Positions 40,090 to 55,426 of a stretch of DNA of 64,000 bases are shown one piece after another. The stretch lies in NCBI RefSeq assembly GCF_032460525.1, contig NZ_CP135963.1, positions 992,001 to 1,056,000 of the forward strand, written 5' to 3'. Position numbers and translations under genes: made by a program. The stretch comes from Geodermatophilus sp. DSM 44513 (GTDB lineage: Bacteria > Actinomycetota > Actinomycetes > Mycobacteriales > Geodermatophilaceae). The notes below the pieces were generated by a model, which saw nothing but the letters and a program-made list of their open reading frames with translations, ran no database searches and had not been told where the DNA came from. Positions within the stretch are counted from its first letter, which is position 1. Every line of letters begins with the position of its first letter.

Positions 40090-40701
40090 TCAGCCTCCTG
40101 CCTCCGCAGCCGTCGGCCGTCGCGCCGCGACCGACGACGCCTCCAGCATCGCGAGGACATAGCGGACGTGGACGTCGGCGAGTTCTGCGAGGGACAGTGG
40201 CCCGTCGGGGCGGTACCAGGTGGGCACCGCCGCGCAGACGGAGACGATCGCTCGGGTCGCGCCGTCCGGGTGCGGCGTGCGGAACTCCCCGGTGCGGACC
40301 CCGTCCACGATGACTCTGCGGAAGATGCTTTCGGTGGTGTCGCGCGCCTCGACGACCGCCAAACGGCCCTCGCCCCGCAGGTAGCGGAACTCGCTCAGGG
40401 CGAGCACCGCCGCCGTCTGGCACTCGCCGGAGAACGTCACGTACGCCCGGACGCCGGCGGCCATGCGCTCGGTCGCTCCCGGACCCGCCGTGTCGAGTTC
40501 CGCACGGATCCGCCGCAGCAACTCGTCGTTGGCGTCGCGCAGCAGGGCGACCAGGACGTCGGACTTGGACGAGAAGTGGTTGTAGAGGTTGGACAGGCTG
40601 GTCTCGGCGGCGCGGGCGATGTCCCGCATCGACGTCCCGTTGAAGCCGTCGCTGGCCATCAGGTCCAGCGCCGCGGCCAGGCAGCGCGCGCGGGCGCTCA
40701 C
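40090..40701 (-). CDS. TetR family regulator of the catabolic module
   Basis: A 203-residue one-component regulator. The TetR_N helix-turn-helix is at about residues 5-50 (GTSMRDIARAAETSLSNLYNHFSSK). The helical C-terminal domain would bind a ligand, probably the substrate or a CoA ester. It is the third gene of the minus-strand operon that starts at 42439, so it controls its own synthesis if it binds the twin palindromes at 42541 and 42666. GTG start. The sub-family could not be fixed from sequence. Confidence 0.85.
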   Translation of the reverse strand: MSARARCLAAALDLMASDGFNGTSMRDIARAAETSLSNLYNHFSSKSDVLVALLRDANDELLRRIRAELDTAGPGATERMAAGVRAYVTFSGECQTAAVLALSEFRYLRGEGRLAVVEARDTTESIFRRVIVDGVRTGEFRTPHPDGATRAIVSVCAAVPTWYRPDGPLSLAELADVHVRYVLAMLEASSVAARRPTAAEAGG

Positions 40702-40781
40702 CGGTCCCCCGCCGTCGTCATCTCGCCGTCCTGTCGAGCCGGGGCCTCAGGGCCCCGGACGTGCCGCGTCCCGCCATCCGC

Positions 40782-41624
40782 TCACTCCTCTGCGCGCGTG
40801 CTGCCCCGCCCCGCCGTCGCGGTGCGCCCCGCATCGAGCTCCACCAACCAGCCGTGGAGGAGGGCAGCGAAGTCATCGATCTCCTCCATGGGGTAGTGGC
40901 CGATGCCCTGCAGCACGGTCATCCCACCGTGCGGGATCTGCTCGGCAGTCCACACCACGTCGGCCACATCCAGCCACAGATCGTCGTCACCCACCACGAG
41001 GTGCGTCGGGCACGGGATGCGGTGCACCGACGCGCGCAGGTCGTGGGTCGCCCAGCCGAGCAGGTCGGACGTGGAGACCACCGGGTCCTCGCGCCGGTGC
41101 ATGGTCGCGACGAGCTCGGCGCGCTCCGCGGGCATCCGGCGTCCCACGACGGCCAGGGTGCCGAAGTAGGTGCGGTCGCTCCTGCTGGGGGCGGCGGCGT
41201 CCTCCAGTTCGCGCCGCAGGCTGGACACGCTGGCTCGACTGTTCCTGGCGTCGGCCGCCATGGCGACGATCCCGGCCAGCCGGGCGCCGGCCCGTACACC
41301 CAGGTCCAGGGCGATCTTGCCGCCGATGGAGCAGCCGACCACGAAGGGTTCGTGGACCTCGAGGAGTTCCAGCAGCTCGAGGCACCACTCGGCGTAGTCG
41401 CCCAGGTCGCGTACCGGGCCCCCGATGGCCGGCTCCGAGCGCCCGTGGCCCGGGAGGTCCGGGACGATCACCCGGTGACCCAGCGCCGCCAGCCGTTCCG
41501 TCGTCCGCCGCCACTGGACCCCGCTCTGGCCCGCGGTGTGCAGGCAGAGGACGGGACGACCGCTCCCGCTCTGCTCGACGTACGCCAGGGCGCCGCGGAC
41601 GGTGACGTAGCTCGCCCGGATCAT
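40782..41624 (-). CDS. alpha/beta hydrolase of the catabolic module
   Basis: A 280-residue alpha/beta hydrolase. The HTAG oxyanion region is at about 29-32 (VLCLHTAGQSG), the nucleophile elbow GCSIGG at about 96-101, the acid in VVGDDDLWLD, and the catalytic His in GIGHYPMEE. Shape and length fit enol-lactonases, thioesterases and C-C bond hydrolases of ring-cleavage pathways. The ATG overlaps the stop of the hotdog-SCP2 gene as ATGA. Its place opposite a CoA-dependent degradation operon suggests cleavage or activation of the same substrate. Confidence 0.82.
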   Translation of the reverse strand: MIRASYVTVRGALAYVEQSGSGRPVLCLHTAGQSGVQWRRTTERLAALGHRVIVPDLPGHGRSEPAIGGPVRDLGDYAEWCLELLELLEVHEPFVVGCSIGGKIALDLGVRAGARLAGIVAMAADARNSRASVSSLRRELEDAAAPSRSDRTYFGTLAVVGRRMPAERAELVATMHRREDPVVSTSDLLGWATHDLRASVHRIPCPTHLVVGDDDLWLDVADVVWTAEQIPHGGMTVLQGIGHYPMEEIDDFAALLHGWLVELDAGRTATAGRGSTRAEE

Positions 41625-42439
41625 CCCCGTCCTCCCGTCGCCAGCTCGCGAGCGGCGTCGATCAGCGCCATCAGTGCCTTGGACATCCGCAGGTACTCGT
41701 AGGCGTTGCCGGTCACGGTGAACGCGTCCCCGCTCATGGCCCTGCGGAAGAAGTCGTTGGACGGACCGGTGACCAGGTCCGTCCAGAGTCGCTCGGAGCC
41801 CTCGAGGGTGAAGGTGGCGCCCAGCGGAGTCCGTCCGGCGACCTCGATGACCCGTCCCCGGTAGACGCGCAGGTGCACCTCGTCCTTCCCGGCGCGGAGG
41901 CCGATGGTCCCGTCCCAGGTGGCCGTGGCCGACCGGAAGCCCTCATCGCCGGCCAGCCGTCGGGCCAGCGACTCCGCCCAGGGCCGGCTGCAGAAGGCCC
42001 GTTCCGCGGCGTCGGCGGCCCCGTCGGATCCCGGCCGCGCCGGCAGCAGGACCTCGATGGTCCCCTCCTGCACGGTGCGCCCCGCCCGGTCGTGCACCTG
42101 CAGATGCCACTGCACCGAGCCCGCGTCCTCGGCGGGGACCCGCCGGCACCGGGTCACGGTGAACGTCGCCTCGACCGGCTCGCCGACGGGCACGGGGGAG
42201 AGGTTCGACCAGTGCGTCTCCAGCACACGCAGCAGCGACGGGGGGAGGAGCCCACCGTCGGACGCGAGGGCGACGACCGTGGTCAGCCCGGCCGTGGGTG
42301 TGCGCCGAGCGGCGCGGTCGTCCGGGTCGGGAGGTCGACGGACTGAGCCGGCGCCGCGCTGGCCGACGGAGAAGTCCTCGTAGTACGGGCCCGTCGGCGT
42401 CGCGGTCGTGCTGTCGCGCTGCTGCGCCCCCACGCTCAT
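41621..42439 (-). CDS. hotdog (MaoC-like)-SCP2 fusion protein
   Basis: A 272-residue two-domain protein. The N-terminal half (about 15-140) starts with YYEDFSVGQ like MaoC hydratases and keeps the later strands (LPPSLLRVLETHW, VPVGEPVEATFTVTR). The segment that should hold the catalytic Asp-x4-His is replaced by an Arg/Pro-rich stretch, so hydratase activity is unlikely. The C-terminal half (about 155-270) matches the SCP2/sterol-carrier fold (GTIGLRAGKDEVHLRV, TGNAYEYLRMSKALM). It may carry a hydrophobic acyl-CoA. First gene of the minus-strand operon. Confidence 0.65.
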   Translation of the reverse strand: MSVGAQQRDSTTATPTGPYYEDFSVGQRGAGSVRRPPDPDDRAARRTPTAGLTTVVALASDGGLLPPSLLRVLETHWSNLSPVPVGEPVEATFTVTRCRRVPAEDAGSVQWHLQVHDRAGRTVQEGTIEVLLPARPGSDGAADAAERAFCSRPWAESLARRLAGDEGFRSATATWDGTIGLRAGKDEVHLRVYRGRVIEVAGRTPLGATFTLEGSERLWTDLVTGPSNDFFRRAMSGDAFTVTGNAYEYLRMSKALMALIDAARELATGGRG

Positions 42440-42540
42440 GTGCGGCTGTCCCCTCGGGTGTGCGGTCCACCGGCCCGGCCGGTCGGCGGGGGCGGGGTGC
42501 CCTGGTCGTCCGCTCACGAAGAGGTGTCGATCTGGGGCGT

Positions 42541-42556
42541 ACGAACGATCGTTCGT
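42541..42556. promoter_or_regulatory. operator palindrome O1 (minus operon)
   Basis: ACGAACGATCGTTCGT, a perfect 16-bp palindrome of the kind bound by TetR-family dimers. It sits just downstream of the presumed minus-strand -10 region, so bound repressor would block that promoter. Confidence 0.8.
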
Positions 42557-42558
42557 CC

Positions 42559-42588
42559 AAGGAAAGCGCCTGGCTCCCCGGTCGTCAA
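42559..42588 (-). promoter_or_regulatory. promoter of the minus catabolic operon
   Basis: TTGACG (42588-42583) preceded by ACCCCC, with a weak TTCCTT -10 after 18 bases, followed directly by O1. The leader to the ATG at 42439 is about 100 bases and contains GAGGGGA. Confidence 0.45.
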
Positions 42589-42629
42589 GGGGGTGCGGGC
42601 GGGCCGGGAGCGGATCGTCGCCAACCCCC

Positions 42630-42659
42630 TTGACGTGTGATCGCCCTCACTCGTACGTT
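42630..42659 (+). promoter_or_regulatory. promoter of the plus catabolic operon
   Basis: TTGACG, 18 bases, TACGTT. The predicted start point falls inside the second palindrome. Confidence 0.6.
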
Positions 42660-42665
42660 ACCGGA

Positions 42666-42681
42666 ACGAACGATCGTTCGT
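42666..42681. promoter_or_regulatory. operator palindrome O2 (plus operon)
   Basis: The same perfect 16-mer as O1, 125 bp away, at about +1 of the plus-strand promoter. Confidence 0.8.
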
Positions 42682-42743
42682 GCAGCGAGGTCGCCCGATG
42701 GCCGGCCCACAGCCGGGACACCGATCCAGGACGGGAGAAGCAC

Positions 42744-43925
42744 ATGCGGGTGCAGGCACGGAACCGACTGGTCGCCACGGCGGCCGCGGTCGCGGCCACG
42801 GTCGTCGTGACGGGCTGCGGGACGAGCACCGGGTCCGAGGCAGGGTCCGCCGCCGCCGGCGGGGGCGGCGGTGAGGGGTACCCCTGCGACGCCGACGAGG
42901 TGACCATCGGCGGCCTCTGGGCGCAGAGCGGGCCCCAGGCGGCCTACGGCGAGTGGTTCGCCAACGGCACCGAGATGGCGGTCGAGGACGTCAACGCCGA
43001 GGGCGGGATCGGTGGGCAGACCCAAATCCGGCTCCAGGTCGAGGACACCCGCGCGCTCCCTGAGCCGGCCGTGGTGGCCTTCCAGGGCATGGTCGCGGAC
43101 GGCATCCAGTACGTGCTGAGCTCCTTCTCCAGCCAGACGCTGGCCCTCGCGCCGATCGCGGCCAACGAGGAGGTCGTCCTCGTCAACGGGGGCGCGCAGA
43201 GCGACGCCCTGGGTGAGCAGGGGCCCTTCCTCTTCAACACCATCCCGCTCCTGCGCAACGAGAGCGCGGCGCTGGCCGAGAAGCTCTACGAGGACGGCGT
43301 CCGGAGCGCGGCGATCATCTACACCAGCGACGACGGCGGAGAGGCCGCTCGCGAGAACTTCGAGGCGGCCTTCACCGAGCTGGGCGGAGAGATCGCCGGT
43401 GTCGAGAGTGCCGAGTTCGGCGGGACCGACTTCCGCTCGCAGCTGACCAAGCTGCGCTCGACCGACCCCGAGGTGCTGCTGCTCGGCGCGTTCGGCCAGG
43501 ACTCGAACAACATCATCAGCCAGGTCCGCGAGATCGGCTGGGACGTGCCGCTGGCCAACACCTCCTGGGTGGCCATCCCGGCCGTGCTGGAGAACCCCGC
43601 GGCCGAGGGGCTGCGGCTCACCACCATCCCGTTCGAGCCGAGCGAGGAGTTCCAGCAGGAGTACCAGGAGAAGTACGGCGAGGCCCCCGAGAGCGCGTTC
43701 ATCGGCAACTACTACGACGGGGTCACGATCTTCGCCGAGGCGTTCCAGCACGTGTGCGACTCCGGTGCCGAGACGGTGAGCGGCGCCGCGCTGGCGGACG
43801 CCATCCGAGAGATCGGCACGTTCGACTCCGTCTACGGCTCCGAGCTGACCTTCGAGGAGGGCACGGCCAGCCGCCCCATCGACCTCGCCGTCATCGAGGG
43901 CGGCGCCGTCAGGCCGGTCGGGTAA
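42744..43925 (+). CDS. branched-chain amino acid-type ABC transporter substrate-binding lipoprotein
   Basis: A 393-residue periplasmic-type binding protein of the Peripla_BP_6 (LivJ-like) family. The lipoprotein signal peptide ends at VVTGC with acylated C25, followed by a Gly/Ser/Ala linker, then the mature fold beginning TIGGLWAQSGPQAAYGEW. In catabolic clusters this family often binds aromatic or short carboxylic acids rather than amino acids. First gene of the plus operon, with GGGAGAAG before the ATG. A hairpin directly after its stop may raise its level relative to the permeases. Confidence 0.9.
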   Translation: MRVQARNRLVATAAAVAATVVVTGCGTSTGSEAGSAAAGGGGGEGYPCDADEVTIGGLWAQSGPQAAYGEWFANGTEMAVEDVNAEGGIGGQTQIRLQVEDTRALPEPAVVAFQGMVADGIQYVLSSFSSQTLALAPIAANEEVVLVNGGAQSDALGEQGPFLFNTIPLLRNESAALAEKLYEDGVRSAAIIYTSDDGGEAARENFEAAFTELGGEIAGVESAEFGGTDFRSQLTKLRSTDPEVLLLGAFGQDSNNIISQVREIGWDVPLANTSWVAIPAVLENPAAEGLRLTTIPFEPSEEFQQEYQEKYGEAPESAFIGNYYDGVTIFAEAFQHVCDSGAETVSGAALADAIREIGTFDSVYGSELTFEEGTASRPIDLAVIEGGAVRPVG

Positions 43926-43946
43926 CCGGCCGCGGCCCGGCCGGTT
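43924..43946 (+). terminator. intra-operon hairpin after the binding-protein gene
   Basis: AACCGGCC/GGCCGGTT, 8-bp perfect stem with a 7-base loop, beginning in the stop codon. It is probably an attenuating or mRNA-stabilising element rather than a full stop, because the permease gene follows 28 bases later. Confidence 0.5.
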
Positions 43947-43973
43947 CGCCGCACGCCTCAATGGAGGAGACGC

Positions 43974-44861
43974 ATGGACCTCTTCGTCCAGTTGCTGCTC
44001 AACGGGCTCGTCGCAGGCAGCCTGTACGCGCTCGTCGCGGTCGGTTTCGCGCTCATCTTCGCGGCGACCCGGCACTTCCACATCGCCCACGCCGCGGTCT
44101 TCGCCGCCGGCGGCTACCTCGCCTACTTCCTGGCCGACTTCCTCCCCGTCGGGCCGGCCGTGGCCGTCGCGGTGCTGCTGTCGGTGGTCCTGGGCGTGGT
44201 GCTGGTGACGCTCCTCTACCGGCCGTTGGAACGGCGGGGCGGGGCGGGCTTCGTGCTGTTCCTCGTCTCCCTGGGAGCACTCATCGTGATCGACAACATC
44301 TTCACGGTGGGGCTCGGGGCCCAGCCGGCCCGCCTCGCGGCGGGGAGCTGGTTCACCACGACCGTCGACATCGGGCAGTGGTCCCTGATCGCCGGTCAGG
44401 TGGCGCTCATCGTGCTGGCCTTCGCGCTCTTCGGCGGGCTGGTCACGTTGCTCGCCAGGACCCGGATGGGCAAGCTCGTCCAGGCGTTCTCCGGCAACCC
44501 GGAGTTCGTCCAGATCGTCGGCCGCAAGCCGCAGGTGGTCCTCGTGGTCGTCTACGCGCTGGGATCGCTGCTCGCCGCGGTGGCCGGGGTCTACGTGGCC
44601 GCGGACACCGGCATGCAGCCCGGCCTCGGCGAGACCTTCTTCATCGTCTCGGTCATGGCCGTGATCATCGGCGGCATCGGGAGCATCACGGGGGCGTTCG
44701 TCGCGGCGATGCTCCTCGGCCTGCTGCAGAACGTGCTGCTCCTGGTCATGGGCGCCGAGTGGACGCTCGCCGCCATCTTCGTCCTCTTCCTCGTGCTCAT
44801 CACGGTGAGCCCTGAGGGGCTGGCGAGGATCGATCTGCGGAGGGCCCGGACCCTGGCATGA
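43974..44861 (+). CDS. branched-chain-type ABC transporter permease (LivH-like)
   Basis: A 295-residue inner-membrane permease with about eight helices, starting LFVQLLLNGLVAGSLYALVAVGFALIFAATR as LivH proteins do. The cytoplasmic coupling region (MGKLVQAFSGNPEFVQIVGRKP) is near residues 163-185. It forms the channel with the LivM-like protein. Good Shine-Dalgarno (TGGAGGAG). The stop overlaps the next ATG. Confidence 0.9.
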   Translation: MDLFVQLLLNGLVAGSLYALVAVGFALIFAATRHFHIAHAAVFAAGGYLAYFLADFLPVGPAVAVAVLLSVVLGVVLVTLLYRPLERRGGAGFVLFLVSLGALIVIDNIFTVGLGAQPARLAAGSWFTTTVDIGQWSLIAGQVALIVLAFALFGGLVTLLARTRMGKLVQAFSGNPEFVQIVGRKPQVVLVVVYALGSLLAAVAGVYVAADTGMQPGLGETFFIVSVMAVIIGGIGSITGAFVAAMLLGLLQNVLLLVMGAEWTLAAIFVLFLVLITVSPEGLARIDLRRARTLA

Positions 44862-45790
44862 ACGAGTACATCCTCTCGATCGCGACGCTGATCGCGATCT
44901 ACGCAATCCTCTCCGTCTCGCTGAGCCTGCTGGTGGGGCACACGGGCATCTTCTCGATGGCGCACGCGGCACTGTTCGGCGTCGGTGCGTACACGTACGC
45001 CGTGCTGACCGTCCAGCTCGGCTGGGGTCCCGGTCCGGCGCTCGTGGTGGCCCTCCTGCTCGCGGCGCTGGCCGGTGCGGTGATGGCCATCCCGTCGCTG
45101 CGGGTCTCCGGCGACTACTTCCTCGTGGCGTCGTTCGCGCTGCAGGTCGTCGCGGGCAGCGTCTTCGAGAACTGGACGTCGGTCACCGGTGGCACCGGCG
45201 GGATCCCCGGGATCCAGCGGCCCACCATCGGGCCGCTGGACTTCGGTGACAACACCGCCTTCCTCGGCCTCGCCGTGGCCGTGGCGGTGCTGGTGGTGGC
45301 CGTCTCGCTGTGGCTCGTCCGCTCGCCCTACGGGCGGATGCTGCACGTGGTCCGGGACGACGAGGTCGTCGCCGCGACGCTCGGCAAGCCGGTCCGCTTC
45401 GCCAAGGTCTCGGTCACCGTCCTGTCCGGTGCCTTCGCCGGTCTCGCCGGCGTGCTCTACGCCCAGTACCTGCTGTACCTGAGCCCCGGCACGTTCGAGG
45501 TCGCCACGTCCGTCTCGATCATCACGATGGTCGTCCTGGGCGGCATGACCTCGGTGGCGGGCTCGGTCATCGGAGCCGCCGTCATCGTCCTCATCCCGCA
45601 GGGCCTGCGGCAGCTCGACATCGCCAGTTCCGTGGCCGGGCCGCTCGAGCAGGTCTTCTTCGGCCTGCTGCTGGTCCTGCTGATGTTCGTCCGGCCCCAG
45701 GGACTGCTGGGCGGGTCCCGGCGGCGCCCGCGGCCGGCGACGGACGACGTCGGCGACGCTGCGAGGGGGGAGACGGTCCATGCTGCTTGA
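44858..45790 (+). CDS. branched-chain-type ABC transporter permease (LivM-like)
   Basis: A 310-residue polytopic permease, with YAILSVSLSLLVGHTGIFSMAHAALFGVGAY near the start and the EAA-like coupling loop SPYGRMLHVVRDDEVVAATLGKPV near 150-171. Coupled by ATGA to the LivH-like gene. Its C-terminus overlaps the ATPase gene by 11 bases, so the transport components are translated as a unit. Confidence 0.9.
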   Translation: MNEYILSIATLIAIYAILSVSLSLLVGHTGIFSMAHAALFGVGAYTYAVLTVQLGWGPGPALVVALLLAALAGAVMAIPSLRVSGDYFLVASFALQVVAGSVFENWTSVTGGTGGIPGIQRPTIGPLDFGDNTAFLGLAVAVAVLVVAVSLWLVRSPYGRMLHVVRDDEVVAATLGKPVRFAKVSVTVLSGAFAGLAGVLYAQYLLYLSPGTFEVATSVSIITMVVLGGMTSVAGSVIGAAVIVLIPQGLRQLDIASSVAGPLEQVFFGLLLVLLMFVRPQGLLGGSRRRPRPATDDVGDAARGETVHAA

Positions 45791-46535
45791 GGTCGAGGAC
45801 GTCTCGAAGAGCTTCGGTGGCCTGCAGGCGGTCAAGAACGCCACCTTCGAGGTCCCCGAGGCCCAGGTCACCGGACTGGTCGGCCCGAACGGCGCCGGCA
45901 AGACCACGGTGTTCAACATGATCTCGGGGACCATCCGGGCCGACGCCGGGTCCATCCGGTACCGGGACACGGAGATCACCGGCCTGTCGCCCCAGGCCCG
46001 CATCGGCCGCGGGATCGCGCGCTCGTTCCAGGACGTGCGCCTGCTGCCGAAACTCACCGTCCTGGAGAACGTCGTGGTCGGCGTCCAGGGCCAGCCCGGC
46101 GAGCGGCTGCGGAACGTGTTCACCCGCCCCTGGCACAGCCTCCGCAGCGAGCAGGCGAGCCGCCGGCGGGCGGCCCAGTGCCTGGACTACGTGGGCATGC
46201 CGGCCTCGGTCCACCACGAGCTGGCGGGGAGTCTGTCCTACGGGGAGCAGAAACTGGTCGCGATCGCCCGGCTGCTCGCCACGGGTGCCGACCTGCTCCT
46301 GCTCGACGAGCCGACCTCCGGTCTGGACGAGGGATCCCTCGACGAGTTCCGCGCGGTGCTGCGGCGGCTGATCTCCGAGGGCCGCACCGTGCTGCTCGTC
46401 GAGCACAACATGCTGCTGGTGCGAGAGCTGTGCGACCGGGCGGTGTTCCTGAGCACCGGGGAGGTGCTGGCCGTCGACACCCCCAGCCGGCTGATGGAGA
46501 ACGAGGAGCTGCGCGATGTCTACTTCGGTGCCTGA
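45780..46535 (+). CDS. ABC transporter ATP-binding protein (LivG-like)
   Basis: A 251-residue ATPase with Walker A GPNGAGKTT (35-43), signature LSYGEQK (second Gly of LSGGQ replaced by Tyr, usual in LivG), Walker B LLLLDEP and the switch His in VEHNM. Long insertion around RNVFTRPWHSLR typical of LivG. Powers import together with the LivF-like subunit, whose gene overlaps the end of this one by 20 bases. Confidence 0.9.
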   Translation: MLLEVEDVSKSFGGLQAVKNATFEVPEAQVTGLVGPNGAGKTTVFNMISGTIRADAGSIRYRDTEITGLSPQARIGRGIARSFQDVRLLPKLTVLENVVVGVQGQPGERLRNVFTRPWHSLRSEQASRRRAAQCLDYVGMPASVHHELAGSLSYGEQKLVAIARLLATGADLLLLDEPTSGLDEGSLDEFRAVLRRLISEGRTVLLVEHNMLLVRELCDRAVFLSTGEVLAVDTPSRLMENEELRDVYFGA

Positions 46536-48926: not shown

Positions 48927-49969
48927 CGTCGATGCGCGCCATCCGTATGCACGCGTTCGGCGGACCCGAGGTGCTGGTCGAGGAACGGGTCCCCCTCCCG
49001 ACCCCCGAGCTCGGGCAGCTGGTGATCGAGGTCGCCTACTGCGGGATCTGCCGCCACGACCTGCTCACCCGCGCCGGGGCGTTCCCGGCAATCTCGCTGC
49101 CGTTGACGCTCGGGCACCAGGTGAGTGGCCGGGTGGTCGAGGTCGGCCCAGAGGTCGAGGGGTTCGCCGTCGGCGACCGGGTCATGACGATGATCTACAC
49201 CGGCTGCGGCGCCTGCCCGAGCTGTCAGGCCGGCAACGACGCCCTCTGCGTCCGGACCCGGCCGCAGTTCCTCGGGGAGGACCGCGACGGCGGGTACGCC
49301 CAGTTCGTCGCCGTCGAGGCCCGGGTGACCGTGCCGTTGCCGGACGCCGTGTCGCTGCCCGAGGCGGCCATCGCCACCTGCACCCTGGGCACCGCTTACC
49401 ACGCCATCGCCACCCGCGGCGCGCTCCAGGCCGGTGAGACCGTGGCGATCACGGGTGCCAGCGGCGGGGTCGGCGTCCACGCCGTCCGCATCGCGCGCAT
49501 GCTCGGCGCGACGGTCGTCGGCATCGTGTCGAGCGAGGAGAAGGCGCGGCCGGTCGAGGAGGCCGGTGCCGACCACGTCCTGGTGTCACCGACGCGCACC
49601 TTCGCCCGGGAGCTCCGCGGCCGGCTGGGCCGCCAGGTGGACCTGGTGGCCGACGTCGTCGGCGCGCCCACCCTCCGCGAGTCCCTGCACGCCGTCCGGC
49701 CCGGTGGCCGGATCGTCGTCGTGGGCAACGTCGAGGGCAAGGAGGTCTCGATCCCGCCCGCGTACCTGATCCTCAAGGAGGTCGCCCTGCTCGGGACCAA
49801 GTCCTGCACCACTGGCGAGATGACCGCGCTGCTCGACGCCGTGGCGAGCGGGGAGCTGACGGCCGAGGTGACCGACGTCGTGCTGCTCTCCGACGCCCGT
49901 GGAGTGCACGAGGACATGGAAGCGGGACGCGGCAGCGGCCGCTCCGTCCTGGCGGTGGCCGGTGGCTGA
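48923..49969 (+). CDS. zinc-dependent alcohol dehydrogenase (MDR)
   Basis: A 348-residue medium-chain dehydrogenase. The catalytic-zinc residues are C43 (GICRHD) and H65 (LGHQVSG). The four structural-zinc cysteines are C95, C98, C101 and C109. The NAD(P)-binding loop is GASGGVGVHAVR. It may oxidise a hydroxyacyl-CoA or reduce an enoyl-CoA double bond; some zinc MDR enzymes in CoA pathways (6-hydroxycyclohexene-carboxyl-CoA dehydrogenase, acryloyl-CoA reductase) do each. The substrate is not fixed by sequence. Confidence 0.85.
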   Translation: MTSMRAIRMHAFGGPEVLVEERVPLPTPELGQLVIEVAYCGICRHDLLTRAGAFPAISLPLTLGHQVSGRVVEVGPEVEGFAVGDRVMTMIYTGCGACPSCQAGNDALCVRTRPQFLGEDRDGGYAQFVAVEARVTVPLPDAVSLPEAAIATCTLGTAYHAIATRGALQAGETVAITGASGGVGVHAVRIARMLGATVVGIVSSEEKARPVEEAGADHVLVSPTRTFARELRGRLGRQVDLVADVVGAPTLRESLHAVRPGGRIVVVGNVEGKEVSIPPAYLILKEVALLGTKSCTTGEMTALLDAVASGELTAEVTDVVLLSDARGVHEDMEAGRGSGRSVLAVAGG

Positions 49970-50351
49970 CCCGACCGGGGAGATCGGCCCCACCCGTCAG
50001 TACCTGGACGCCCTGCGCGAGGGCCGGCTGGTCTACCAGCGGTGCGAGCAGTGCAGCGCGGCGGTCTTCCCGCCGCGGGTGCTGTGCCCGGTCTGCAGCG
50101 CCGACGTGCTGGCCTGGCAGCCCAGCGAGGGCGCGGGCACGGTCTACTCGGCCAGCACGCTCACCCCTCGGGACGAAGACCCCTACACCGTCGTCCTCGT
50201 GGACCTGGACGAGGGCTTCCGGGCGATGAGTGCGGTGGCCGGGACGACCGCACCGATCGGTTCGCGGGTGCGGCTGACGGCCCGGCCGGCGGACGACGCC
50301 ACGGGCGAGCCGCGGCTGGTCGCCGTCCTCGACGGGGTGCGGGATGGGTGA
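49962..50351 (+). CDS. DUF35 OB-fold/rubredoxin-like zinc-ribbon protein
   Basis: A 129-residue acyl-CoA-associated protein: a zinc ribbon with C28, C31, C42 and C45 (CEQC and CPVC) followed by an OB fold (GAGTVYSASTLTPRD). DUF35 proteins partner with SCP2-type thiolases or lyases. The best known is ChsH2-DUF35 activating the retro-aldolase Ltp2 in steroid side-chain degradation. The GTG lies eight bases inside the dehydrogenase gene, and the thiolase-like gene starts eight bases inside this one, so a complex is very likely. Confidence 0.85.
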   Translation: MADPTGEIGPTRQYLDALREGRLVYQRCEQCSAAVFPPRVLCPVCSADVLAWQPSEGAGTVYSASTLTPRDEDPYTVVLVDLDEGFRAMSAVAGTTAPIGSRVRLTARPADDATGEPRLVAVLDGVRDG

Positions 50352-51492
50352 GCTGCGGAGCCGCGCGGCGGTCGTCGGCGTCGGCGAGGACGGCATCGGC
50401 CTGGCGGTGCCGGGCAGCACGCCGCTGGACCTGGTGGCCCGCGCGACCCGGGTGGCGCTCGACGACGCGGGGCTGGCGATGTCTGACGTCGACGGCCTGT
50501 TCACGGCCTCGGCGTACTACCAGCTCCCGGCGCTGAACACCGGCGAGTACCTCGGGCTCCGGCCGCGCTACACCGACAGCACGGCGCTCGGCGGGAGCTC
50601 GTTCGTGGCCCACGTGGGCCACGCGGCGGCCGCCATCGCCGCCGGGCTGTGCGACGTCGCGCTCGTCGTCTACGGCAGCACCCAGCGGTCGGACTCGGGC
50701 CGGCTGGTCTCCCAGTCCGAGGCGTCGCCGCACGAGCGCCCGTACCGGCCCCGGTACCCGGTGACCTCCTACGCGCTGGCCGCCGCCCGGCACATGTACG
50801 AGTTCGGCACCACCCGCGAGCAGCTGGCCGCGGTCGCCGTGGCGGCCCGGCAGTGGGCGCAGCTGAACCCGGCGGCGTTCGCCCGCGACCCGCTGACCGT
50901 GGACGAGGTGCTCTCGTCGAGGACGGTGTCCTCGCCGCTGACCGTGCGCGACTGCTGCCTGGTCACCGACGGAGGCGGCGCACTGCTCGTCACGTCGACG
51001 GAACGGGCCGCCGACCTGCGCCGGCCCCCGGTGCACCTGCTGGGGTACGGCGAGGCGCAGTGGCACCGGAACATCACCCACATGCCGGACCTCACGGTCA
51101 CCGCGGCCGTGGACTCCGGCCGCCGGGCCTATGAGCAGGCCGGGCTCTCGCCGTCGGACGTCGACCTGCTCGAGCTCTACGACGCCTTCACCATCAACCC
51201 GATCCTCTTCCTGGAGGACCTCGGTTTCTGCGCGAAGGGCGAGGGCGGTGAGCTCGTCGCCTCCGGCGCCATCGCGCCCGGGGGCGGGCTGCCGGTGAAC
51301 ACCAACGGCGGGGGCCTGTCCTGCTGCCACCCCGGCATGTACGGGATCTTCGCGTTGATCGAGGCGGTGCGGCAGCTCCGTGGCGAGGCGGGGGAGCGGC
51401 AGGTACCCGGTGACGTGGCCCTCGTCCACGGCAACGGTGGCGTCCTGTCCAGCCAGGTGACCGCCATCTTCGGCACCTCCGCCACCCAGTGA
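50344..51492 (+). CDS. SCP2-type thiolase-like protein (possible retro-aldolase)
   Basis: A 382-residue thiolase-fold protein of the lipid-transfer/SCP2 group. The usual nucleophilic Cys is absent: the corresponding position reads GGSSFVAH (about 83-90). The later NTNGGG and HPG block reads SCCHPGMYG, with Cys where many thiolases have GHP. Ltp2-type enzymes that lack the nucleophile cleave beta-hydroxy-acyl-CoA by retro-aldol reaction and need a DUF35 partner, which is encoded next to it here. Thiolytic activity through another Cys cannot be excluded. Confidence 0.78.
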   Translation: MGELRSRAAVVGVGEDGIGLAVPGSTPLDLVARATRVALDDAGLAMSDVDGLFTASAYYQLPALNTGEYLGLRPRYTDSTALGGSSFVAHVGHAAAAIAAGLCDVALVVYGSTQRSDSGRLVSQSEASPHERPYRPRYPVTSYALAAARHMYEFGTTREQLAAVAVAARQWAQLNPAAFARDPLTVDEVLSSRTVSSPLTVRDCCLVTDGGGALLVTSTERAADLRRPPVHLLGYGEAQWHRNITHMPDLTVTAAVDSGRRAYEQAGLSPSDVDLLELYDAFTINPILFLEDLGFCAKGEGGELVASGAIAPGGGLPVNTNGGGLSCCHPGMYGIFALIEAVRQLRGEAGERQVPGDVALVHGNGGVLSSQVTAIFGTSATQ

Positions 51493-51507: not shown

Positions 51508-51963
51508 GTGAGCCTGTTCTACGACGACCTCGAGGTCGGCCAGGTGCTCCGCACGCCGGCGCGGACGGTCACCGAGACGGACCTGGTGACGTTCTCCATG
51601 GTGTCCGGTGACTGGGCGGCCATCCACAGCGACGCGGAGTTCGCCCGCAGCACCTTCTACGGGCAGCGCGTCGTGCACGGGCTGTTCGGTCTGTCGATGC
51701 TGACCGGTCTGCTGGAGCGTGCCGGGTGGTTCAGCGAGTCGGCGCTCGCGATGCTCGACATCGAGCGGTGGGCCTTCGCGAGCCCGATCTTCCTCGGCGA
51801 CACCCTGCGCGGGGAGATGGAGATCCTGTCCAAGCGCGTCACGAGCAGCGGGGACCGCGGGATCGTGGGGCGCCGGTTCACGCTGGTCAACCAGCGTGAC
51901 GAGGTGGTGCAGACCGGCGACGTCGGCATGATGATCAAGATGGCGCCGGACGTGACGGCGTGA
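51508..51963 (+). CDS. MaoC-like (R)-specific enoyl-CoA hydratase
   Basis: A 151-residue single-hotdog hydratase. The catalytic pair D35 and H40 is intact (SGDWAAIHSD), with FYGQRVVHGLFGLSM as the following helix. It should hydrate a 2-enoyl-CoA intermediate to the 3-hydroxy form, the substrate for the DUF35-thiolase retro-aldolase if that pair works as proposed. GTG behind GGGAGG. Its stop overlaps the SDR remnant by four bases. Confidence 0.87.
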   Translation: MSLFYDDLEVGQVLRTPARTVTETDLVTFSMVSGDWAAIHSDAEFARSTFYGQRVVHGLFGLSMLTGLLERAGWFSESALAMLDIERWAFASPIFLGDTLRGEMEILSKRVTSSGDRGIVGRRFTLVNQRDEVVQTGDVGMMIKMAPDVTA

Positions 51964-52208
51964 GGCTGCCCGAGGGTCGCGACGCGGTCGGCGGCGGTGC
52001 GCGGAGCACCAGCCGGCCGCTCGCCGAGCACGGTGCCCGCGTCGTGGCCGCCGATCCGGACGCCGACGCGGCGCAGGCCGCCGTCGCCAGGGCCGCGGTG
52101 GCCGCCTGCCGGGAGTCGAGCTCGGTCGACGAGGTGGTCCTCACCTGCGATCCCTCCGGCCACCTCACCGCTAGGGTCCTCCAGGTCACCGGCGGGCGGT
52201 TCACGTGA
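51960..52208 (+). pseudogene. internally deleted short-chain dehydrogenase remnant
   Basis: An 82-codon frame that opens like an SDR (MRLPEGRDAV, GGARS, then LAEHGARVVAADPDADAAQAAVA at about 22-44). It ends like an SDR C-terminus (EVVLTCDPSGHLTARVLQVTGGRFT). The whole middle, including the Ser-Tyr-Lys active site, is missing, about 160-170 residues. The frame is kept and both ends still overlap their neighbours as GTGA, so translational coupling survives. Could still be a small protein, but a deletion derivative of a 3-hydroxyacyl-CoA dehydrogenase is the simplest reading. Confidence 0.6.
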
Positions 52209-53392
52209 TCGGCTTCGACCTCGACGACGAGCACCGCGACCTGCAGGAGCGGGCCCGCCAGGTCGCGGATGCCGTCCGCCCCCTGGCCCGGCGGTGGGAC
52301 GAGGACGAGGTCTTCCCGGAGGCCTCGCTCGACGTCCTGCGGTCGTCGGGCCTGCTGGGACTGACCGTGCCGGTCGAGCACGGCGGCCACGGCAAGGGGG
52401 TGTTCGAGGCCTGCCTGGTGCTGGAGGAGATCGCGGCCGGCTGCATGGCCACGGCGATCGTGGCCCAGATGTTCCTCAACGGCCCGCCCCGGGCGCTGGC
52501 CGTCGTGGGCACCGCCGAGCAGCAGGCCCGGCTGCTGCCCGGCGTCGGCCGGGGCGAGCGGTACTTCGCGATCGCGATGACCGAGCCCGGCGCAGGCTCC
52601 AGTGGCACCGAGCTCGTCACCCGGCTGACCCGCGGCGCGGACGGCGTGCTGCGGCTGACCGGGACCAAGTGCTACATCACGGGGGGAGACCGCGCCGACA
52701 CGCTGCTGGTTTTCTGCCGGGCGGCCGGCTCGTCGGGCGCCCGCGGCATCGGTGCGGTCGTGGTGGAGCGCGGGCAGCCGGGCTTCGACGTCGTCGAGAC
52801 GTCGCCGAAGATGGGCAGCCGCGGCGTCGCCGAGGCCACCCTCCGCTTCGAGGGCGTCGAGATCGACGGCGCCCAGGTCGTGGTCCCACCGGACCCGGAC
52901 TCGACGGCCGGCGCCCGGCTCCTGCTGCGCCAGTTCAACCCCGAGCGGTGCGGCAACGCGGCGATGTGCCTCGGGGTGGCGCGAGCCGCGCTGGAGGACT
53001 CGGTCGCCTACACCGCCCAGCGGGAACAGTTCGGCCGCCCGATCGTCGAGTTCCAGGGCCTGCAGTGGAAGCTCGCCGACATGGCGGTCCGCCTCGAGAC
53101 CGCCCGGCTGGCGCTGTGGCGGGCCGCGGTCTCGACCGAGGACGGTTTCCCGGCGCTGCGGCACACGGCGGTGGCCAAGCTCGTCGCGAACGAGGCGGCG
53201 CAGTTCGTCACGAACGAGGCGATCCAGCTGCACGGCCACCGCGGCTACACCCGGGACGTGCCCGTCGAGCGGTACTTCCGCGACGTCCGCGGCATGGCGC
53301 TGGCCGGCGGCACGTCGGAGGTCCTGCGGAACATCATCGCCGAGCAGGTGACCGGCCGACGGTTCGCGCAGCGCCCGGCAGGCGCGCCGTGA
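52205..53392 (+). CDS. acyl-CoA dehydrogenase of the catabolic module
   Basis: A 395-residue flavoenzyme for alpha,beta-dehydrogenation of an acyl-CoA. The FAD/substrate blocks ITGGDRADTL, MTEPGAGSSG and QREQFGRPI are present. At the usual catalytic Glu position (YEGT in most family members) there is Gly369 (LAGGTSEV). A Glu at 247 (FNPERCGN) is placed where isovaleryl- and long-chain acyl-CoA dehydrogenases keep their base. That pattern suggests a branched or bulky acyl substrate. Coupled by GTGA overlaps on both sides. Confidence 0.85.
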   Translation: MIGFDLDDEHRDLQERARQVADAVRPLARRWDEDEVFPEASLDVLRSSGLLGLTVPVEHGGHGKGVFEACLVLEEIAAGCMATAIVAQMFLNGPPRALAVVGTAEQQARLLPGVGRGERYFAIAMTEPGAGSSGTELVTRLTRGADGVLRLTGTKCYITGGDRADTLLVFCRAAGSSGARGIGAVVVERGQPGFDVVETSPKMGSRGVAEATLRFEGVEIDGAQVVVPPDPDSTAGARLLLRQFNPERCGNAAMCLGVARAALEDSVAYTAQREQFGRPIVEFQGLQWKLADMAVRLETARLALWRAAVSTEDGFPALRHTAVAKLVANEAAQFVTNEAIQLHGHRGYTRDVPVERYFRDVRGMALAGGTSEVLRNIIAEQVTGRRFAQRPAGAP

Positions 53393-54165
53393 CCGGGGTG
53401 CACGGCCGGGTCGGTGACGACGGGGTCGCCGTCGTCACCATCGACCGGCCGCAGGCCCGCAACGCCCTGGACTGGGACGCCTGGGAGTCGCTGGGACGCC
53501 TCGTGGCCGAGCTCGACCGAGACGACGTCCGCGCCGTGGTGCTCACCGGCGGGGACCGGTGGTTCTCCGCCGGCGGCGACGTGACCTCGATGGGATCCCG
53601 GCAGGGGAGCGGGGTGACCGGGCCCGCAGCCCGCGTCCGGCTGGCGCACCGCGTCGTCCGTGCGTTGACGGGGTGCCGTGCGCCGGTGGTAGCCGCGGTG
53701 GAGGGGTTCGCCATTGGCGCCGCCTGGGGGCTGGTGCTCGCCTGCGACCTGGTCGTGGCCAGCCGTGAGGCGTTCTTCCTCGCCCCGTTCGCCCAGCGCG
53801 CCCTCGTCGCCGACGCCGGCCTGGCGTGGTCGCTGTCCCGGCACGTCGGACACCAGCGCGCCGCGGAGCTGCTGCTCGTCGGCGCCCGCCTACCGGCGGT
53901 CCGGGCGCAGGAGCTGGGTCTGGTCAACCGGGTCGTGGAGCCGGGCGAGGCCGGGGAGCAGGCCCTGGAACTGGCCCGCGGGCTCGCCGCCGGGCCGGCG
54001 GATGCGGTTCAGCTGACCAAGGCGCTGCTCTGCCGGGCGCCCCAGCTGTCGCTCGACAGCTTCCTCGACGAGGAGCACGTCCACGTCGCCCTCAACGGTC
54101 ACAGTCCCGACGTCGCCGAGGGACGGCAGACGTTCCTCGACAAGCGACCGCCCCGGTTCCGGTGA
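53389..54165 (+). CDS. crotonase-fold enoyl-CoA isomerase (PaaG-like)
   Basis: A 258-residue enoyl-CoA hydratase/isomerase. The oxyanion-hole regions are FSAGGDVTSMG and GFAIGAAWGLVLACDL. Neither hydratase Glu is present (AAWGL and FAQRAL in place of the Glu-containing segments). The VADAGLAWSL block carries the Asp typical of PaaG-type double-bond isomerases. Isomerisation of an unsaturated acyl-CoA is therefore likelier than hydration, which the MaoC protein can do. GTG start overlapping the dehydrogenase stop. Confidence 0.82.
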   Translation: MTGVHGRVGDDGVAVVTIDRPQARNALDWDAWESLGRLVAELDRDDVRAVVLTGGDRWFSAGGDVTSMGSRQGSGVTGPAARVRLAHRVVRALTGCRAPVVAAVEGFAIGAAWGLVLACDLVVASREAFFLAPFAQRALVADAGLAWSLSRHVGHQRAAELLLVGARLPAVRAQELGLVNRVVEPGEAGEQALELARGLAAGPADAVQLTKALLCRAPQLSLDSFLDEEHVHVALNGHSPDVAEGRQTFLDKRPPRFR

Positions 54166-54193
54166 CGGCGCTGACCGGCAGGAGGTGCACCCG

Positions 54194-55426
54194 ATGACCG
54201 GGTCGGACCCGGCCGTCGGCCGGCCGCTGGCCGATCTGTCCGTCGTGGAGTTCGCGTCGTTCGTCGCGGGGCCGTCCGCGGGGATGGGGCTGGCCCAGCT
54301 CGGCGCGCTGGTCGTCCGCATCGACCCGCTGGGCGGCGGCAACGACCACCTCCGCTGGCCCCTGGCGGCCAACGGCGCGAGCCTCTACTGGGCGTCGTTG
54401 AACAAGGGCAAGCGCTCGGTCGCGGTCGACGTCCGGTCGGCGGCTGGACGGGAACTGGTGGCGGCGCTGGCCACCGCGGGCAGCGGGATCTTCCTCGACA
54501 ACGCCGTGGGCCGGTCGTGGTTGTCCTATGAGGTGCTCTCGGCCCGGCGCGCCGACTTGGTCCACGTCCGCGTGCAGGGCCACCGGGACGGGCGGCCGGC
54601 CGTCGACTACACGGTGAACGCCGAGGTCGGCGTGCCCCACCTCACCGGGCCGGAGTCCATGGAGGCGCCGGTCAACCACGTGCTGCCCGCGTGGGACCTG
54701 CTCACCGGCGCCACCGCGGCGGTGGGGCTCCTGTCGGCGGTCCACGAGCGGTCGGTCACCGGCCGCGGTGCCCACCTGCAGATCGCGCTGGCCGACGTGG
54801 CGACGGCCGGGGTCGCCAACCTGGGGTGGCTGGCGGACGCCGAGCTGACCGGCCGGGACCGGCCGCGGCTCGGCAACCACGTCCACGGCAGCTTCGGCAC
54901 CGATTTCACGACGGCCGACGGTCAGCGTGTGATGGTGGTGGCGCTCACCGAGAAGCAGTGGCACGCGCTGTGCCGGGTGACCTCCACCGAGGAGGTGTTC
55001 CGGGCGCTGGCGGTCGCGCTGGACGCCGACCTCGACAGCGAGTCCGAGCGGTACCGGCTGCGCGAGACGATCGCCGCGGTGCTGCGTCCGTGGTTCGCCA
55101 CCCGGACGCTCGCCGAGCTGGCCGGCCGGCTCGACGTCGCCCGGGTGCTGTGGAGTCCCTACCGCACCCTCCGCCAGGCCGCCGCCAAGTACGCCTCGGA
55201 CGAGGACCCGGTCGTGCGGCACGTCGACCAGCCCGGCATCGGCCGGATGCTGGCTGCCGGCTCGCCGCTGCGCTGGCCGGAGGGCAGCCTGCCGCCGCAG
55301 GCCGCTCCCCGCCTCGGGGCCGACACGGCGGAGGTGCTGTCCTCGCTCCTCGGGTTGACCGACGCCGAGCTCGGCCGACTGCTCGACGACGACGTCATCC
55401 GTCTCGCGGACCGGGGGACCGGGTGA
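54194..55426 (+). CDS. CaiB/BaiF (family III) CoA-transferase
   Basis: A 410-residue CoA-transferase. It opens with LADLSVVEFASFVAGPSAGMGLAQLGA, holds the catalytic Asp D138 (AVDYTVNAEVG) and the TGRGAHLQIALADVA block. It could move CoA from a pathway product to the incoming acid, saving ATP against the ligase. The ATG at 54194 lies six bases after AGGAGGTG. A GTG nine bases earlier overlaps that site and is unlikely. Last intact gene of the plus operon. Confidence 0.85.
   Translation: MTGSDPAVGRPLADLSVVEFASFVAGPSAGMGLAQLGALVVRIDPLGGGNDHLRWPLAANGASLYWASLNKGKRSVAVDVRSAAGRELVAALATAGSGIFLDNAVGRSWLSYEVLSARRADLVHVRVQGHRDGRPAVDYTVNAEVGVPHLTGPESMEAPVNHVLPAWDLLTGATAAVGLLSAVHERSVTGRGAHLQIALADVATAGVANLGWLADAELTGRDRPRLGNHVHGSFGTDFTTADGQRVMVVALTEKQWHALCRVTSTEEVFRALAVALDADLDSESERYRLRETIAAVLRPWFATRTLAELAGRLDVARVLWSPYRTLRQAAAKYASDEDPVVRHVDQPGIGRMLAAGSPLRWPEGSLPPQAAPRLGADTAEVLSSLLGLTDAELGRLLDDDVIRLADRGTG

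Follow-up and report, generated by a model that had tools for sequence, protein, structure and literature searches.

The order of the bbs operon is known from anaerobic toluene degradation, and its gene kinds overlap with those of the locus analysed here: a DUF35 gene adjoins a thiolase gene, and dehydrogenase, crotonase and CaiB kinds are common to both. A precedent for the pathway logic proposed below is the ThnP/ThnO route of anaerobic naphthalene degradation, for which the cited sections of PMC11659651 describe an intramolecular CoA move on a dicarboxylyl-CoA and a dehydrogenase whose catalytic Glu is preceded by Gly; hydration then yields a tertiary alcohol, followed by a lyase that is termed novel and whose reaction is left open there. 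According to section 4.3 of that article, Tyr usually precedes the catalytic base; Gly in this place is associated with a tertiary beta carbon, and Phe, Leu or Val with alpha substitution. The itaconate/methylsuccinate cluster (PMC12290011) follows a similar dehydrogenase, hydratase and lyase logic from methylsuccinyl-C4-CoA; unlike our locus, it relies on an intermolecular CoA transferase together with a citramalyl-CoA lyase, and the genes described here include no counterpart of its MmgE/PrpD isomerase. Ltp2 and Sal (PMC12329534) are DUF35-dependent steroid aldolases with a thiolase fold, and mesaconyl-CoA C1-C4 transferase (Mct) is a solved CoA transferase in which Phe101, Arg75 and Arg104 form a CoA cork, Leu/Ile43 being said to be conserved in intramolecular CoA transferases (PMC9813914).

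The window, a stretch of 64,000 nucleotides from the soil actinomycete Geodermatophilus sp. DSM 44513, contains a putatively TetR-controlled catabolic gene cluster of 17 genes at 40090-56868. The initial annotation had placed 14 intact genes at 40090..55426; the cluster is real, but that range actually holds 16, and its right edge was too short, since acyl-CoA dehydrogenase 2 (ACAD2; plus strand, 55669..56868) also belongs to the unit. Reading ACAD2 as an unrelated neighbour across a 242-base gap was rejected, because co-occurrence in related loci and its residue signature tie it to the module. On the minus strand lie the genes for the TetR regulator (203 aa, 40090..40701; PF17932 TetR_C_24 103 bits, PF00440 49.6 bits), the alpha/beta hydrolase abH (280 aa, 40782..41624; PF00561/PF12697) and the hotdog-SCP2 fusion hdSCP (272 aa, 41621..42439). 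The plus strand encodes a Liv-type importer, with a substrate-binding protein (42744..43925; PF13458 188.1 bits, scanned from 42717), permeases H (43974..44861) and M (44858..45790; both PF02653), and ATPases G (45780..46535) and F (46516..47283; both PF00005), the start of F being uncertain (46600 according to the gene caller). An AMP-forming acyl-CoA ligase (47280..48926; PF00501 196 bits) and a zinc alcohol dehydrogenase-type oxidoreductase (48923..49969; PF08240/PF00107) follow, and the remaining plus-strand genes are described below. Rfam gave no matches. All enzyme kinds are known, and their combination appears uncharacterised: a search of titles and abstract openings, with thin coverage of subscription journals, most of which lay outside its scope, returned none describing this gene set, in line with the earlier description of the module as undescribed.

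Two perfect and identical 16-bp palindromes, ACGAACGATCGTTCGT, lie in the divergent promoter region, at 42541..42556 on the side of the minus operon and at 42666..42681 on the side of the plus operon. They are the only such sites in the 4.63-Mb genome when up to two mismatches are allowed, and the motif recurs at module gene starts in 11 of 13 related loci. Both results support the earlier claim that the module is self-regulated, TetR presumably acting through these predicted operators. A promoter scan of 42400-42800 returned none above threshold; by eye, a weak TTGACG at 42630 is followed 18 bases on by TACGTT at 42654, and one weak minus-strand TTGACG lies at 42588.

The class III CoA transferase CaiB (plus strand, 54185..55426) is, judged by its structural matches, an Mct homologue. 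Mct entries scored 395-400 bits (8apq, the closest solved structure, 400), the next entry scored 105, and alpha-methylacyl-CoA racemases reached only 25-28 bits; its 411.9 bits on TIGR04253 (2-methylfumaryl-CoA isomerase) fell below the curated cut-off of 725. Catalytic Asp165 of Mct maps to Asp171 and is present in all 120 relatives listed. Of the cork residues, Arg75 and Arg104 are kept as Arg77 and Arg110 (in 116 and 101 of the relatives listed), whereas Phe101 is replaced by Ala107 and occurs in none. Leu/Ile43 is likewise replaced, by Asn53, and neither Leu nor Ile stands there in any of the 120 relatives listed, one being unaligned. Among six CaiB genes from related loci, two have Arg104 and four have Arg75. 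Because CaiB is an Mct homologue, the substrate is likely to be a dicarboxylic acid.

Where straight-chain acyl-CoA dehydrogenases carry Tyr, both dehydrogenases of the unit have small residues: GEGT in ACAD2, as in ThnO in the cited part of PMC11659651, and AGGT at the usual base site of ACAD1 (plus strand, 52205..53392), whose Glu lies in NPER. Several dehydrogenases that did not match the motif pattern were left out of this signature comparison. By these signatures, which are those of the isovaleryl/ThnO kind, both enzymes would be shaped for a tertiary beta carbon, which agrees with the earlier proposal of a branched or cyclic acid. The best structure for ACAD1 is 5af7. A role as 3-sulfinopropionyl-CoA desulfinase was nevertheless rejected: ACAD1 scored 335.3 bits on NF042439 against 600, has Glu where 5af7 has Gln, and carries Ile at the column of Arg84 of the 3-sulfinopropionyl-CoA enzyme.

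The DUF35 gene (plus strand, 49962-50351; ChsH2-type zinc ribbon and OB fold, PF12172 and PF01796) overlaps by 8 bases the gene for the thiolase-fold lyase THL (plus strand, 50344..51492; PF22691), and a DUF35 match accompanies THL in 79 of 80 loci. THL scored 626.6 bits on the thiolase subfamily model PRK06158 (cut-off 421). It has Gly84 at the nucleophile column, Tyr279 in YDAF, and His329. Across 85 THL loci, the nucleophile column never holds Cys, and the YDxF Tyr and the thiolase His (xHP) are always kept. Among solved structures THL matches 4u4e best (399 bits), an entry deposited as a thiolase that likewise has YDSF and GGSS; the lipid-transfer-type enzymes 9myr (214 bits) and Ltp2 (6ok1, 174 bits) follow. 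THL shares with Ltp2 and Sal the thiolase fold, the DUF35 partner and the YDxF Tyr, and with Ltp2 also the Gly replacing the nucleophile. In contrast to both, it lacks the second aldolase residue (His329 at the Ltp2 Tyr344 column, Ala281 at the Sal Cys304 column), and MaoC and DUF35 are separate genes here. A short-chain dehydrogenase (SDR) gene follows the THL relative in 22 of 80 loci, at most 145 bases away in 21 of them. This adjacency was counted from tblastn positions, contig ends not being allowed for, because a gene caller whose training set was this window recovered THL in no more than 44 of 84 loci. A retro-aldolase function for DUF35-THL is plausible: in the initial annotation's reading of a Cys-less thiolase as probable retro-aldolase, the missing nucleophile and the aldolase Tyr hold, while the missing second catalytic residue and the SDR neighbours weigh against it.

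Downstream of THL on the plus strand, a stand-alone MaoC hydratase (51508..51963; PF01575 77.5 bits) retains its loop as SGDWAAIHSD. It is followed, just before ACAD1, by 82 in-frame codons at 51960..52208 that overlap both neighbours by 4 bases and are probably an SDR relic with its middle missing, the local SDR having been lost. The gapped alignment of the relic to seven SDRs scored above all 500 of 500 shuffles. We grade it as no more than probable because Pfam shows no SDR match, its weak hits being to methyltransferases (E 0.07-0.11), and the FabG C-terminus match in NCBIfam is weak (19.6 bits, E 5e-4, cut-off 296). The crotonase (53389..54165; PF00378) is best matched in NCBIfam by oxepin_alt (218.5 bits, cut-off 300) and, on inspection of its motif, looks more like an isomerase than a hydratase.

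Related loci were collected through hdSCP, which has 17 matches in the order; besides the window itself, 13 with E of at most 3.1e-17 (L105-L117) were used, and three with E of 2e-4 to 1e-3 were dropped. The TetR, carrier, hydrolase and ligase core recurs in these other actinomycetes and is therefore no one-off. Regulator, operator motif, carrier, hydrolase and ligase are held in common, with CaiB and ACAD2 in some loci. In contrast to our locus, an MFS transporter replaces the Liv importer in ten of the 13, a canonical Cys thiolase is present in six, and DUF35-THL is present in none. Four of the loci have genes for an HpaB-type monooxygenase, a flavin reductase and a catechol 1,2-dioxygenase close to the core; these were rejected as regulon members, there being no operator at their starts. 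Within the 20 kb covered, two genus-mates (L103 and L104) have THL, DUF35, hdSCP and abH; their module genes lack the operator, and an Mct-like CaiB is absent.

Taken together, our preferred reading, held at a little short of an even chance, is that the unit degrades a carboxylic acid through retro-aldol cleavage by DUF35-THL; the acid is most likely dicarboxylic, one of its arms carrying a ring or branch at the beta position. In the order that we infer, the acid would be taken up by the Liv importer, and the acid or its CoA ester would release TetR from both operators and so derepress both operons. The ligase would form the CoA ester, and CaiB would shift CoA between the two carboxyls, placing the branch at the beta carbon. 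ACAD2, ACAD1 or both would give the enoyl-CoA, whose double bond the crotonase may move, and MaoC would add water to yield a tertiary beta-hydroxyacyl-CoA. Since this cannot be oxidised to a ketone, no 3-hydroxyacyl-CoA dehydrogenase would be needed, and the local one has probably decayed. DUF35-THL would then release acetyl-CoA and a keto acid or ketone, which may pass to the zinc dehydrogenase. In favour are the unique operators and the recurrence of their motif at module genes of related loci, the Mct-like CaiB, the tertiary-beta-carbon signatures, the Tyr of the Cys-less THL and the probable relic. Against it stand the absence from THL of Ltp2 Tyr344 or Sal Cys304 and from CaiB of Leu/Ile43 and Phe101, the genus-mates described above, the Ile of ACAD1 in place of Arg84, and the lack of an SDR match for the relic in Pfam. 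A relative of the Meh-like hydratase (43%) and one of the CitE-like lyase (43%) are encoded elsewhere in the genome and might take over the last steps instead. The SDR genes that follow THL relatives also count against it, since they fit ketone thiolysis; in five of the loci (L025, L028-L031) an ACADa homologue with the straight-chain signature YEGT lies nearby. The Thn precedent, in the cited part of PMC11659651, differs in being anaerobic and in using a family I transferase (ThnP), whereas CaiB belongs to family III.

A rather unlikely alternative casts DUF35-THL as a BbsAB-like thiolase that acts on an alpha-substituted 3-ketoacyl-CoA in ordinary branched-acid beta-oxidation; the oxidation step would then fall to the zinc dehydrogenase or to an SDR encoded elsewhere. 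In its favour, 22 of 80 loci have the order DUF35, thiolase, SDR, THL keeps the thiolase His, and 4u4e is deposited as a thiolase. In L147, L150, L153, L156 and L161 an ACADa-SDR pair (58-78% identical) goes together with a canonical Cys thiolase, in L025 and L028-L031 with DUF35-THL, as if the cleaving enzymes swap. The nucleophile Cys is nevertheless absent from all 85 loci, THL has Tyr where BbsB and 7yvy (HDAF) have the motif His, scores on the BbsA and BbsB models NF053627 and NF053628 are far under their cut-offs (25.3 of 250 and 145.7 of 750), and the SDR in the window is probably broken. A bulky monocarboxylic acid such as a steroid or terpenoid side chain is improbable; on this reading SCP2 and DUF35 would reflect the lipophilic nature of the substrate, and CaiB would be a racemase or an ordinary CoA transferase: the 9myr and Ltp2 matches of THL, the SCP2 domain and the two cork residues missing from CaiB would suit it, yet CaiB matches Mct and not the racemases (400 against 25-28 bits), no steroid ring genes occur among the 17, and the ligase scored 146 of 750 on the steroid-24-oyl-CoA synthetase model.

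We regard as equally improbable a funnel to methylsuccinyl-CoA or a close homologue, from methyl-catechol ortho cleavage or 3-methyladipate-like acids, in which CaiB and ACAD2 would lead to mesaconyl-C4-CoA and then citramalyl-CoA. Thiolysis of 4-methyl-3-oxoadipyl-CoA gives methylsuccinyl-CoA, and aromatic-type genes lie near the core in the four loci named above. Plasmid pSHV1 of Sphingobium carries, after an Mct-like CaiB, a FEGA dehydrogenase, a FAS1-DH/MaoC-type protein and a lyase (266 of 375 on the citramalyl-CoA lyase model RipC/Ccl), and L147 has the same gene kinds (lyase 159 of 375). The unit itself, however, has no aromatic genes, those of the four loci have no operator, CaiB is well under the TIGR04253 cut-off, and the Meh label for the FAS1-DH proteins is our own, NCBIfam naming neither.

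Building on retro-aldol cleavage by DUF35-THL, we raise, as a doubtful but testable generalisation, that dicarboxylic acids whose beta carbon is tertiary may be degraded aerobically as follows: a family III transferase shifts CoA onto the far carboxyl, a GEGT dehydrogenase with MaoC forms a tertiary alcohol, and retro-aldol cleavage by a Cys-less DUF35-THL takes the place of SDR plus thiolase. The THL family would then be a general tertiary 3-hydroxyacyl-CoA lyase, of the kind called for by the open lyase step of the ThnP/ThnO route. The family is spread over actinomycetes and proteobacteria. If true, a large DUF35-paired Cys-less "thiolase" family, which annotation calls acetyl-CoA acetyltransferase or thiolase, would gain a testable function, and the CoA-relocation logic of anaerobic naphthalene breakdown would have its aerobic counterpart.

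The conserved operator motif marks out a regulon with a constant set of regulator, carrier, hydrolase and ligase, whereas transporter and C-C cleaving enzyme vary by host; given this shared core, a substrate identified in one host would help to name it in others. Among solved structures, the best matches of the Liv substrate-binding protein are Leu/Ile/Val-binding proteins, none scoring above 67 bits, and the best NCBIfam model for the ligase is PRK06164 (571 bits, cut-off 677). hdSCP, the putative carrier, matched no Pfam or NCBIfam family; by fold comparison its C-terminus has the SCP2 fold, and this domain is conserved. Its hotdog domain has lost the MaoC catalytic loop: neither hdSCP of the window nor any of the 17 proteins nearest to it shows the SGDxHPLHxD pattern, which is intact in five of the 14 aligned relatives, all more distant ones. 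The part played by abH is likewise conjectural; its homologue, 53-68% identical, adjoins the carrier gene in all 13 related loci. In L105, the monooxygenase and dioxygenase genes follow the ligase gene on the same strand, and co-transcription is possible there.

Judged from its sequence and comparative context, the segment at 40090-56868 is a genuine, conserved and very likely self-regulated catabolic unit of 17 genes, in which every enzyme is of a known kind and the combination appears to be new. The window lies at 992001-1056000 on a single 4,628,844-base genome contig. Gene calling with codon statistics and Pfam resolved the two divergent operons that the initial annotation had proposed: three minus-strand genes (TetR, alpha/beta hydrolase and a hotdog-SCP2 fusion, hdSCP) and 14 plus-strand genes, namely a binding protein, two permeases, two ATPases, a CoA ligase and a zinc dehydrogenase, followed by DUF35, a thiolase-fold lyase (THL, 50344..51492), MaoC, an acyl-CoA dehydrogenase (ACAD1, 52205..53392), a crotonase, a class III CoA transferase (CaiB, 54185..55426) and a second acyl-CoA dehydrogenase (ACAD2, 55669-56868). 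The fourteen intact genes initially counted in 40090..55426 were too few, as this range holds 16 of the unit's 17. Overlaps of 4 to 20 bases occur there at 8 of the 12 junctions of adjoining intact plus-strand genes (7 of 12 if LivF starts at 46600). The flanks are of other gene kinds: to the left lie DUF4190 and a two-component pair, to the right a DUF4230 gene read from the opposite strand.

Gene order in related loci places ACAD2, which starts 242 bases past CaiB, within the unit. Its homologue in L114, from a genome of another family, is 75% identical and shares an overlap with CaiB; L150, L153 and L156 have ACAD2 genes of 78-79% identity directly after a CaiB homologue; and plasmid pDK3 of Rhodococcus sp. 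DK17 carries a 76% identical gene a few genes downstream of zinc dehydrogenase, thiolase and OB-fold genes.

Near relatives of the window's proteins are named Blastococcus, the genus to which the host is taken to belong; in one near relative, Blastococcus sp. SYSU DS0539, hdSCP and CaiB share a 422,204-base contig. Of 26 genomes of the genus, four have hdSCP (one matching only at 7e-4, with an internal stop), as do 17 of 298 genomes of the order, the host's own included in both counts. Thirteen loci of the order were fetched (L105-L117), with three weak hdSCP matches left out. All 13 carry the hydrolase (53-68% identical) and the ligase (34-40%); 12 have TetR, 10 an MFS transporter, seven SnoaL, six a canonical thiolase, three an Mct-like CaiB (Mct, mesaconyl-CoA C1-C4 transferase), two ACAD2 and none DUF35-THL. 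A core of TetR, hdSCP, hydrolase and ligase recurs in other actinomycetes. A search of 396 genomes of the phylum at 1e-60 gave the CaiB type in 22, own included; among 8000 scored database candidates, 7083 were of this type. THL at 1e-60 occurs in 6 of 26 genomes of the genus, and relatives of 57-75% identity were found in at least 80 loci of actinomycetes and proteobacteria.

The 304-base divergent region contains ACGAACGATCGTTCGT twice, at 42541 and 42666, and a whole-genome scan allowing up to two mismatches returned these two sites only; a backward-read control motif gave none in the genome at the same tolerance. When the window was pooled with 12 related loci, the 10,082 bases upstream of TetR and hdSCP contained 10 copies of the core GAACGnnCGTTC, and the remaining 290,550 bases 14. 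With a slightly relaxed motif, 24 of the 26 sites in L105-L117 are gene-start sites, belonging to TetR, hdSCP, ACADc5 (a dehydrogenase type of related cassettes), MFS or SnoaL genes, four of them within the first bases of the called gene, before its homology begins, and 11 of the 13 loci have at least one such gene-start site. No operator motif was found at the module genes of L109, L115, L147, L150, L153, L156 or the genus-mates L103 and L104. Because the TetR gene is part of the minus operon and one of the predicted operators precedes it, TetR very likely represses itself; the earlier proposal of self-regulation agrees with these identical, genome-unique predicted operators and with the retention of the motif in 11 of 13 loci.

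Several related loci have further gene content. L103 (G022, 1-19901) holds a further cluster with Liv ATPases, ligases, a citrate synthase-like protein, crotonases, zinc dehydrogenase, THL, DUF35, hdSCP, the alpha/beta hydrolase, a metallo-beta-lactamase protein and a CitE-like gene. In four of the 13 order loci (L105, L106, L113 and L114), genes for an HpaB-type monooxygenase, a flavin reductase and a catechol 1,2-dioxygenase lie close to the core regulon, in varying arrangement and without an operator at their starts. One stretch of Streptomyces antnestii (L025, 466-11907) combines a FAS1-DH-type hydratase, a CitE-like lyase, an MHS-like transporter, ACADa (another dehydrogenase type of related cassettes), a 722-aa succinyl-CoA-ligase-like CoA synthetase, DUF35, THL and a short-chain dehydrogenase (SDR).

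The best solved structures for CaiB are mesaconyl-CoA C1-C4 transferases (400 and 395 bits), other class III transferases scoring at most 105 bits. According to PMC9813914, Mct uses Asp165 as catalytic residue, intramolecular transferases conserve a Leu or Ile at position 43, and the CoA cork is held by Phe101, Arg75 and Arg104. Mapped by alignment, the window CaiB has Asp, Asn, Ala, Arg and Arg at 165, 43, 101, 75 and 104. Among the 120 CaiB matches listed, Asp is present in all, Arg75 in 116 and Arg104 in 101; Leu/Ile43 and Phe101 appear in none. The curated Mct score is 411.9 of 725, below the cut-off, and CaiB reads as an Mct homologue with an altered mouth, not as Mct by that score. The substrate is likely dicarboxylic; strictly intramolecular transfer would be one candidate mode.

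According to PMC11659651, the residue preceding the catalytic Glu of acyl-CoA dehydrogenases is usually Tyr; enzymes for alpha-substituted substrates have Phe, Leu or Val there, and a Gly goes with a tertiary beta carbon. By their motifs, the dehydrogenases of related cassettes follow this rule: ACADa has YEGT in 11 loci, ACADc5 has FEGT, and the dehydrogenase adjoining CaiB on the Sphingobium plasmid pSHV1 has FEGA. ACAD2 has GEGT in the window, L150, L153, L156 and pDK3 (the motif pattern yielded no reading for L113, L114 and L147), and ACAD1 has AGGT, its Glu being located in NPER instead. These tertiary-beta signatures are consistent with the branched or cyclic acid suggested initially.

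Between MaoC and ACAD1, an 82-codon plus-strand frame at 51960-52208 begins with a GTG overlapping the MaoC stop, ends across the ACAD1 start and has a GC3 of 0.92. Its ends resemble the SDR nucleotide-binding start and C-terminus (VTGGRF), SDR being the type found beside THL relatives, and it lacks the middle part, where SDRs carry catalytic residues. Aligned to seven SDRs with a long gap allowed, it scored at best 95.4; none of 500 shuffles exceeded 70.8, and the five remaining frames of this gap between the genes reached 26-51. The last 30 residues of its product match FabG in NCBIfam, weakly (E 5e-4); Pfam returned no SDR and only methyltransferase matches (E 0.07-0.11). The frame is probably a lost SDR gene that underwent an in-frame deletion with the operon's translational coupling kept, though it could be a small gene of other origin.

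THL has its best solved match in 4u4e (399 bits), deposited as a thiolase, which shares GGSS and has the motif YDSF. Gly84 aligns with the thiolase nucleophile of 7yvy, and none of 85 THL sequences has Cys in this column, in line with the Cys-less SCP2-type thiolase described earlier. Tyr279 takes the place of the base in Ltp2 (YDHF) and in Sal (YDCY), with Ala at the third position, and His329 occupies the column of Ltp2 Tyr344 (Ltp2 and Sal as described in PMC12329534). Because all 85 sequences combine the missing Cys with the motif Tyr and a His in xHP, the residue pattern favours retro-aldol chemistry.

Thiolysis by DUF35-THL is the less likely alternative, and the probable retro-aldolase of the initial annotation, favoured by the Tyr and Cys-less features, is weakened by an SDR gene downstream of THL in 22 of 80 loci (21 within 145 bases, one at 859). 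Moreover, one ACADa-SDR pair type accompanies a Cys thiolase in some genomes and DUF35-THL in others. The DUF35-thiolase-SDR gene order is reminiscent of the bbs operon. The THL family as a whole may be mixed; for the window, retro-aldol cleavage would rank first because the unit contains no straight-chain-type dehydrogenase, its SDR is probably broken and the tertiary-beta signatures remain.

hdSCP matched no recognised family in Pfam or NCBIfam. In its predicted structure (mean pLDDT 84.8), residues 14-137 match MaoC hotdogs and residues 148-267 match SCP2. SGDxHPLHxD, the loop bearing the MaoC catalytic pair, is missing from hdSCP and the 17 proteins closest to it, whereas a strict pattern finds it in 46 of the 120 matches listed; in an alignment of relatives it is intact in 5 of 14, all farther ones. 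As the separate MaoC of the unit retains a loop of this type, the fusion is here probably a binding or partner protein, hydration having shifted to the stand-alone MaoC.

Taken together, the findings narrow the chemistry to a substrate with a tertiary beta carbon, probably a dicarboxylic acid. The same logic of CoA relocation, dehydrogenation at a tertiary beta carbon, hydration and tertiary alcohol cleavage is described for ThnP/ThnO of anaerobic naphthalene degradation in PMC11659651, where the lyase is still termed novel and ThnP belongs to a different transferase family from CaiB. According to PMC12290011, the itaconate/methylsuccinate cluster differs in reaching citramalyl-CoA without CoA relocation and in cleaving with citramalyl-CoA lyase. 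The literature searched, of limited coverage, contained no description of this gene set, which agrees with its initial designation as undescribed.

Among THL-like loci, Polaromonas sp. JS666 plasmid 2 (L169, 20827-41960) carries a 64% identical THL within a long row of DUF35, SDR, MaoC, crotonases, several acyl-CoA dehydrogenases, CaiB, Liv genes and an AMP-binding ligase, on which a literature search listed nothing. The pDK3 locus (L171, 755528-778851) combines the GEGT ACAD2-like gene with two thiolase-OB-fold pairs, zinc dehydrogenase and F420-dependent oxidoreductases; the thiolase nearer to that gene has YDNF. Close THL relatives also occur in MAG records titled Bifidobacterium breve, Asaia bogorensis and Bordetella parapertussis (L023, L038, L088), titles that may be misassigned. 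About 3.5 kb from the unit, beyond an unknown gene, the two-component pair and the DUF4190 gene, an HpcH/HpaI aldolase/citrate lyase gene (35609-36562) is a possible lyase, though unlinked to the unit. The only tRNA called by ARAGORN, a 98-base tRNA-Arg (acg) at 38466-38563, sits inside a histidine kinase gene (37452-38591), towards its 3' end, and is probably a false call.
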